This document shows positions 35,186 through 36,402 of a stretch of DNA of 36,402 nt, piece by piece. Each line of letters opens with the position of its first letter. Within the stretch, counting starts at the first letter, position 1. The stretch is from an uncultured bacterium (lineage in GTDB: Bacteria; Patescibacteriota; Minisyncoccia; Phycocordibacterales; UBA2163): assembly GCA_913041175.1 (NCBI GenBank), contig CAJWGW010000003.1:1-36402 (forward strand), in the 5' to 3' direction. The position numbers and the translations under genes were made by a program. The notes beneath the pieces are model-generated. The model saw nothing but the letters and a program-made list of their open reading frames with translations. It ran no database searches and had not been told where the DNA came from.

Positions 35186-36402
<1,217 letters not shown>

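Follow-up and report, generated by a model that had tools for sequence, protein, structure and literature searches.

Probable ancestral loss of the anti-Shine-Dalgarno sequence from 16S rRNA in an order of Patescibacteria

The 16S rRNA gene and its 3′ tail

The window, by which we mean the whole stretch of 36,402 nucleotides that was analysed, ends within a 16S rRNA gene on the minus strand (Table 1), and judging from the match to Rfam model RF00177 only the 5′ side of this gene is cut, by the end of the contig. The genome, here called G000, is a draft assembly of 28 contigs and 444 kb that is 99.6% complete, in which no second 16S rRNA gene was found, all RF00177 matches being located on one contig. 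Beyond the 3′ end of the 16S rRNA gene a glycine-zipper lipoprotein gene is read from the opposite strand. A tmRNA gene (RF00023, 97.8 bits), unreported by ARAGORN, is located on the minus strand at 16189–16563.

Table 1. Position of features in the window.
Feature	Position	Strand	Basis and remarks
16S rRNA gene, 3′ part	35185..36402	minus	Rfam RF00177, 1142 bits, model 284-1533
Helix 45, CACGGCUAGC-GGAA-GCUGGUCGUG	35198..35221	minus	sequence; identical in G002 and G005
Tail GAUUAUUUCCAAC, 13 nt	35185..35197	minus	read from sequence; conserved in the genus
Old CCUCC site, now UUUCC	35188-35192	minus	within the 13-nt tail
Inverted repeat UUCC-AAC-GGAA	35181..35191	minus	order-wide repeat exceeds shuffles; 3′ arm 35181-35184
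Precursor-stem trailer half, GAACGAAACAAAAGAAAG	35043..35064	minus	sequence; pairs with the 16S leader in G005 (L108) and other order members
Glycine-zipper lipoprotein gene, perfect SD (GGGAGGUGAGAAAG-AUG)	34525..34971	plus	Pfam PF13488; conserved synteny with 16S
GGAGG-led genes	34525; 8916; 9442	plus; minus; minus	GGAGG at SD spacing

In RNA sense the 3′ end of the 16S rRNA reads GTAACAAGG CACGGCUAGC GGAA GCUGGUCGUG followed by the tail GAUUAUUUCCAACGGAA, and in a longer reading ...GUAACAAGG CACGGCUAGC GGAA GCUGGUCGUG GAUUAUUUCCAACGGAACCCGUU.... Helix 45 is complete with its GGAA loop, the target of dimethylation by KsgA, and the completeness of the helix makes the register of the tail sure. 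After helix 45 the minus strand carries GGAUUAUUUCC where GGAUCACCUCC is standard, and the old anti-Shine-Dalgarno (anti-SD) site reads UUUCC, confirming the statement of the initial annotation that the tail departs from CCUCC after a normal helix. Compared with GAUCACCUCC, C is replaced by U at tail positions 4, 6 and 7. The three C-to-U steps said to have turned CCUCC into UUUCC are therefore present as differences, but only two of them fall inside CCUCC, the third one changing GAUCA to GAUUA.

The pattern of helix and tail was also searched for in six genomes of the family, that of the window among them, which all belong to one genus. The helix was matched in three of them, with the same helix 45 and the tail GAUUAUUUCCAACGGAA in all three, and the trailers are homologous and differ between the species. 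When the tail was aligned across related genomes, which was the check first proposed, the congeneric MAGs G002 and G005 were identical to the window, and the order-type tails listed for the rest of the order were without CCUCC. The possibility that the contig departs from the true 16S rRNA at about 35198, through a chimeric end or a read error, had been named as a refutation and gains some plausibility from the position of the gene at a contig end, a common place for misassembly, but it has practically no probability left and was rejected, as the two other MAGs carry the same tail on independent contigs, the lipoprotein gene also adjoins the 16S rRNA gene in G002 (99% identical), members of the order have related tails, and the trailer contains one half of a precursor stem.

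In those members of the order whose sequence covers both leader and trailer, UUUUCUUUUGUUCCGUUC-like leaders pair with GAACGGAACAAAAGAAA-like trailers in a long stem, which mostly begins far more than 100 nt past helix 45. The window contains the trailer half of this stem, and its tail thus sits within an ordinary precursor loop. At about 35090–35180 on the minus strand, and at other loci of the order, the trailer is laid out as a stem-loop, a GUCGRU-like motif (ACUUAYNGNGUCGRUY), a second stem-loop and then the precursor stem. Among the genes for factors acting on this region, a KsgA/RrnaAD gene is present in G000 (G000:C1:845-1618, E 3e-60) and gives a full match also in G005, while the match in G002 (99% complete) is weak and partial, perhaps owing to a gap in the draft. 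YbeY and S1-domain genes are kept. A bS21-like gene is found in G000 with a weak score, and in the order such genes have weak scores or give no match. A search for Era, a protein that binds GAUCACCUCC (PMC10582724), gave nothing above the cut-off in G000 or in the other members of the order tested, and as the same holds for most of the CCUCC-bearing Patescibacteria tested, a lack of Era cannot by itself account for the missing anti-SD.

Distribution of the tails and the inverted repeat

A pattern spanning helix 45 and the tail matched 264 of the 397 genomes of the order that were searched. Among the matches listed CCUCC is absent from every order-type 16S tail, and it occurs in none of the 98 distinct order tails of 17 nt (0/98). 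Typical tails are GAAUAUUUCAAUUUGAA, GAUUAAUUCAAUUUGAA and GAUCAAUUCCAAAUGGA, and other members have UUUCA, UAUCC or GUCA. Copies with CCUCC are found, among the matches listed, in five genomes of the order (G077, G187, G134, G132 and G092); these copies have a different helix 45 and four of the five genomes, all but G092, also hold an order-type copy, indicating that the CCUCC copies are probably contaminants. The class is a mosaic, where some families keep CCUCC and others have eroded tails (GAUCAUCUCC, GAUUUUCUCC, GAUCAUUUC) or have lost it. Partly eroded anti-SDs of the forms CAUCUCC and UUUCUCC are seen in other families of the class, for example in G685, G718, G672, G772 and G697. Such eroded tails could put the steps of the loss in order. 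Outside the class nearly all tails of the phylum have CCUCC, among the matches listed. The tails across order, class and phylum thus indicate that the anti-SD was lost long ago and throughout the order, and that further erosions took place elsewhere in the class.

Among the nearest relatives the tails are different and also lack CCUCC, and a quick 16S tree with midpoint rooting places the tails with CC inside those with CA, indicating that the terminal CC of UUUCC was more likely regained than left over from CCUCC. With this nesting, and with many CCUCC-less tails in the order, the three C-to-U steps are doubtful as a history of the site. The reading we prefer is that the anti-SD loss is genuine and ancestral in one order of Patescibacteria (CPR), of which the genome studied here is one member, and we put its probability at about 0.88.

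A short inverted repeat also lies across the old anti-SD site of the window. Within the order this repeat takes the forms UUCA..UGAA, UUCC..GGAA, GUC..GAC and AUC..GAU, with a 5′ arm that covers the old anti-SD end. The repeat is seen in most tails of the order (loci L009–L038 and L110–L169) and is absent from tails without an anti-SD in other orders. Of the 98 distinct order tails 89% can pair over 3 bp or more, compared to 40% of shuffles and 44% of 54 anti-SD-less tails from other orders. Swapping the 3′ halves lowers the pairing, and none of 300 swaps among 18-nt tails reached the observed share of tails with 4 bp, although 9 of 500 did so among 17-nt tails. Double changes in both arms are also seen (UUCA..UGAA / UUCC..GGA, GUC..GAC, AUC..GAU and UAA..UUA), and CC co-occurs with GGA, as CA does with UGA (Fisher p of 6e-12 before correction for descent). 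On the same quick tree, which holds few independent events, CC/CA changes three times and GGA/UGA twice, but this amounts to 2–3 independent paired changes without significance, and the small number of changes indicates that the covariation is largely explained by descent.

These data would fit a tail that has been re-used, with the repeat as a short 3′-terminal hairpin or a protein site for maturation or stability of the 16S 3′ end, which would keep the tails recognisable throughout the order. Besides the few independent changes, the stem of 3–5 bp speaks against it, being unstable alone (as naked RNA the repeat of the window has marginal or no stability and no stable fold by itself), as does the fact that about one tenth of the tails have no repeat. 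The 3′ arm is moreover located just beyond the canonical mature 3′ end given by a 13-nt tail, and the repeat may for this reason occur in the precursor alone. A re-used tail is accordingly a tentative and somewhat doubtful proposal. The fuller version, in which the order-wide repeat has replaced the anti-SD as a new element for 3′-end maturation, by its fold or as a protein site, and a few accessory genes still use GGAGG, is unlikely.

Shine-Dalgarno sequences before the genes

The G000 genome was stitched from stretches and its gene starts are predictions by a simple rule; the 158 of 404 genes that have unambiguous AUG starts were used for the counts. Annotated E. coli starts were taken as the positive control, the simple ORF caller having yielded only 5 E. 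coli starts. Of the unambiguous G000 starts, 5.1% have a canonical SD 5-mer in the SD window and 7.6% in the control window, whereas the same test on the annotated E. coli starts gave 48% and 0%. The corresponding values are 2.5% and 4.5% for G007 from the same order, 4.7% and 3.1% for G470, from the same class with CCUCC kept and with little signal, and 10.7% and 4.1% for G600, from outside the class with CCUCC kept and with a modest signal. As G470 and G600 have CCUCC but few SDs, SDs may have gone out of use in these lineages earlier than the anti-SD disappeared.

No SD was found in the leaders of 18 conserved genes read in the window, including those of secY, rplO, rpsE, rplR, rplF, rpsH, adk, map, infC, rplT, ftsH and murC, and the core-gene leaders are A/U-rich; the absence of SDs before core genes was thus correctly described in the initial annotation. 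Leaders throughout G000 are rich in A, and 59% of the unambiguous starts have U at position -1, a strong preference. The motif counts together with the A-rich, SD-less leaders support a relaxed use of SDs, as had been suggested. Duplex energies were also compared with those of shuffled leaders, but such shuffles ignore dinucleotides and coding context, and in most sets the energies of the upstream control windows were no higher than those of the leaders; plain counts of GGAGG-N-AUG against the reversed pattern were too noisy to tell the genomes apart.

A minority of the leaders do carry GGAGG. Counted within 4–10 nt of a following AUG and with an upstream open frame of no more than 15 codons, GGAGG occurs 21 times at SD spacing in G000, compared to 6–8 times for its anagrams. 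The genes are mostly small, accessory or hypothetical, those with names encoding a dCTP deaminase, a ROK protein and the glycine-zipper lipoprotein, and three of them are located in the window (Table 1). GGAGG is retained in G002 before two (perhaps three) diverged homologues of accessory genes with about 40% protein identity. Given these roughly 21 leaders and the few that persist in G002, some SD-like pairing may still take place, and one could imagine a small regulated set of genes that keep GGAGG for pairing with UUUCC by two G-C, one A-U and two G-U pairs. The computed energy is, however, only -3.6 kcal/mol for GGAGGU:AUUUCC compared to -8.7 kcal/mol for GGAGGU:ACCUCC, in line with the earlier expectation that a canonical GGAGG would pair with UUUCC at much less energy. 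Furthermore, G007 with the tail UUUCA also has 9 GGAGG against 0–7 for anagrams, indicating that the excess is independent of the UUUCC tail, and G002 as a whole has no clear excess (7 against 3–5). The genes concerned might have been acquired recently, or their GGAGG might have some other role. A weak canonical pairing that serves these genes is therefore improbable.

The initial annotation had further proposed that SD selection was re-tuned, so that the UUUCC tail would pick leaders with GGAAA(U) as a new working SD/anti-SD pair. The conservation of UUUCC within the genus is in favour of this, and 5-mers complementary to the tail are indeed somewhat more common before starts in G000 (32% vs 14%), but this is driven by 5-mers of A and U only and the CCUCC-bearing G600 has a similar rise (27% vs 12%). 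GGAAA precedes only one of the 158 unambiguous G000 starts, and TGGAA and TTGGA precede none (0/158 each). At SD spacing genome-wide GGAAA occurs 10 times, which is no excess over the 4–16 of its anagrams. The perfect pairing of GGAAA(U) with the new tail is possible as claimed, but GGAAAU:AUUUCC reaches just -4.0 kcal/mol, compared to -8.7 kcal/mol for the normal pair, and the UUUCA, UAUCC and GUCA tails elsewhere in the order also speak against re-tuning. It is largely refuted and must be regarded as very improbable.

Known systems and the proposed mode of initiation

With a recognisable helix 45, no CCUCC in the tail, a variant shared by relatives, no second 16S rRNA that bears CCUCC and rare canonical SDs, the genome falls among the anti-SD-less, SD-scarce genomes (class iv). 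A working variant SD/anti-SD pair, as in SD-abundant genomes without CCUCC (class iii), was rejected since the complement of the tail is not enriched in the leaders. Loss of the anti-SD along with loss of SDs is described for 15 'non-anti-SD' genomes by Lim, Furuta and Kobayashi (MBE 2012, PMC3522020), and 128 taxids with a variant or no anti-SD are given by Amin et al. 2018 (PMC6107228). The cases in the passages of these two surveys cited here include Flavobacteria, insect symbionts and haemotropic mycoplasmas, most of them being host-dependent or Flavobacteria and none from the present order; in the same passages the anti-SD-less genomes have likewise lost SDs without a matching new SD, and Flavobacteria leaders are A-rich. 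A survey table from 2024 includes Campbellbacteria, Wolfebacteria, Absconditabacteria and Peribacter (PMC10783764). The CPR genomes with anti-SD loss also are CCUCC-less after a normal helix 45, with few SD:antiSD interactions and a variant common to relatives, but the table has one or two genomes per CPR group, whereas here there is a whole order, a mosaic class, a conserved rest of the phylum and an inverted repeat.

In Bacteroidia such as Flavobacterium johnsoniae the anti-SD is sequestered by bS21-bS18-bS6 and its core tolerates mutation (PMC9976891, PMC8710568). Like the order studied here, Bacteroidia do not generally rely on SD pairing to begin translation, and they have A-rich leaders together with a few genes that bear strong SDs, but they usually keep an occluded CCUCC, while here CCUCC is gone from the RNA. 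Sequestration of this type was rejected since CCUCC is absent. The genome does have the bS21-like gene with its weak score. Mammalian mitochondrial 12S rRNA is also without an anti-SD after helix 45 (PMC10582724), but in an organelle where ERAL1 is kept, whereas Era does not rise above the cut-off here. Anti-SD loss itself is therefore known and is tabulated for single CPR genomes; its fixation in an entire order and the inverted repeat were not found described in the open papers searched, and a search of the open literature for the order specifically turned up general surveys only.

For the ancestral loss that we prefer, the following mode of initiation can be proposed. What guides ribosomes to the starts would be A/U-rich leaders without structure, the AUG, the U at -1 and protein contacts, the last of which could be made by the S1-domain and bS21-like proteins that are encoded. 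What the sequence shows of such putative SD-independent initiation is the composition of the leaders (A-rich, U at -1 in 59%). The tail would thereby be freed from pairing with mRNA and might now be under another constraint, seen as the inverted repeat and, less certainly, most likely connected with maturation of the 16S 3′ end.

It is common to regard CCUCC as a universal element, and programs for gene finding use SD motifs to score candidate starts. The order-wide loss, in a large and abundant group of bacteria with small genomes, indicates that a large lineage can give up CCUCC for good, beyond the few symbionts, and that SD-based prediction of starts is unreliable in genomes of this order. 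The stages of erosion in the class form a comparative series for the question of which was lost first, the SDs of the genes or the anti-SD of the ribosome, and the sister lineages G470 and G600 hint that the genes lose their SDs first.
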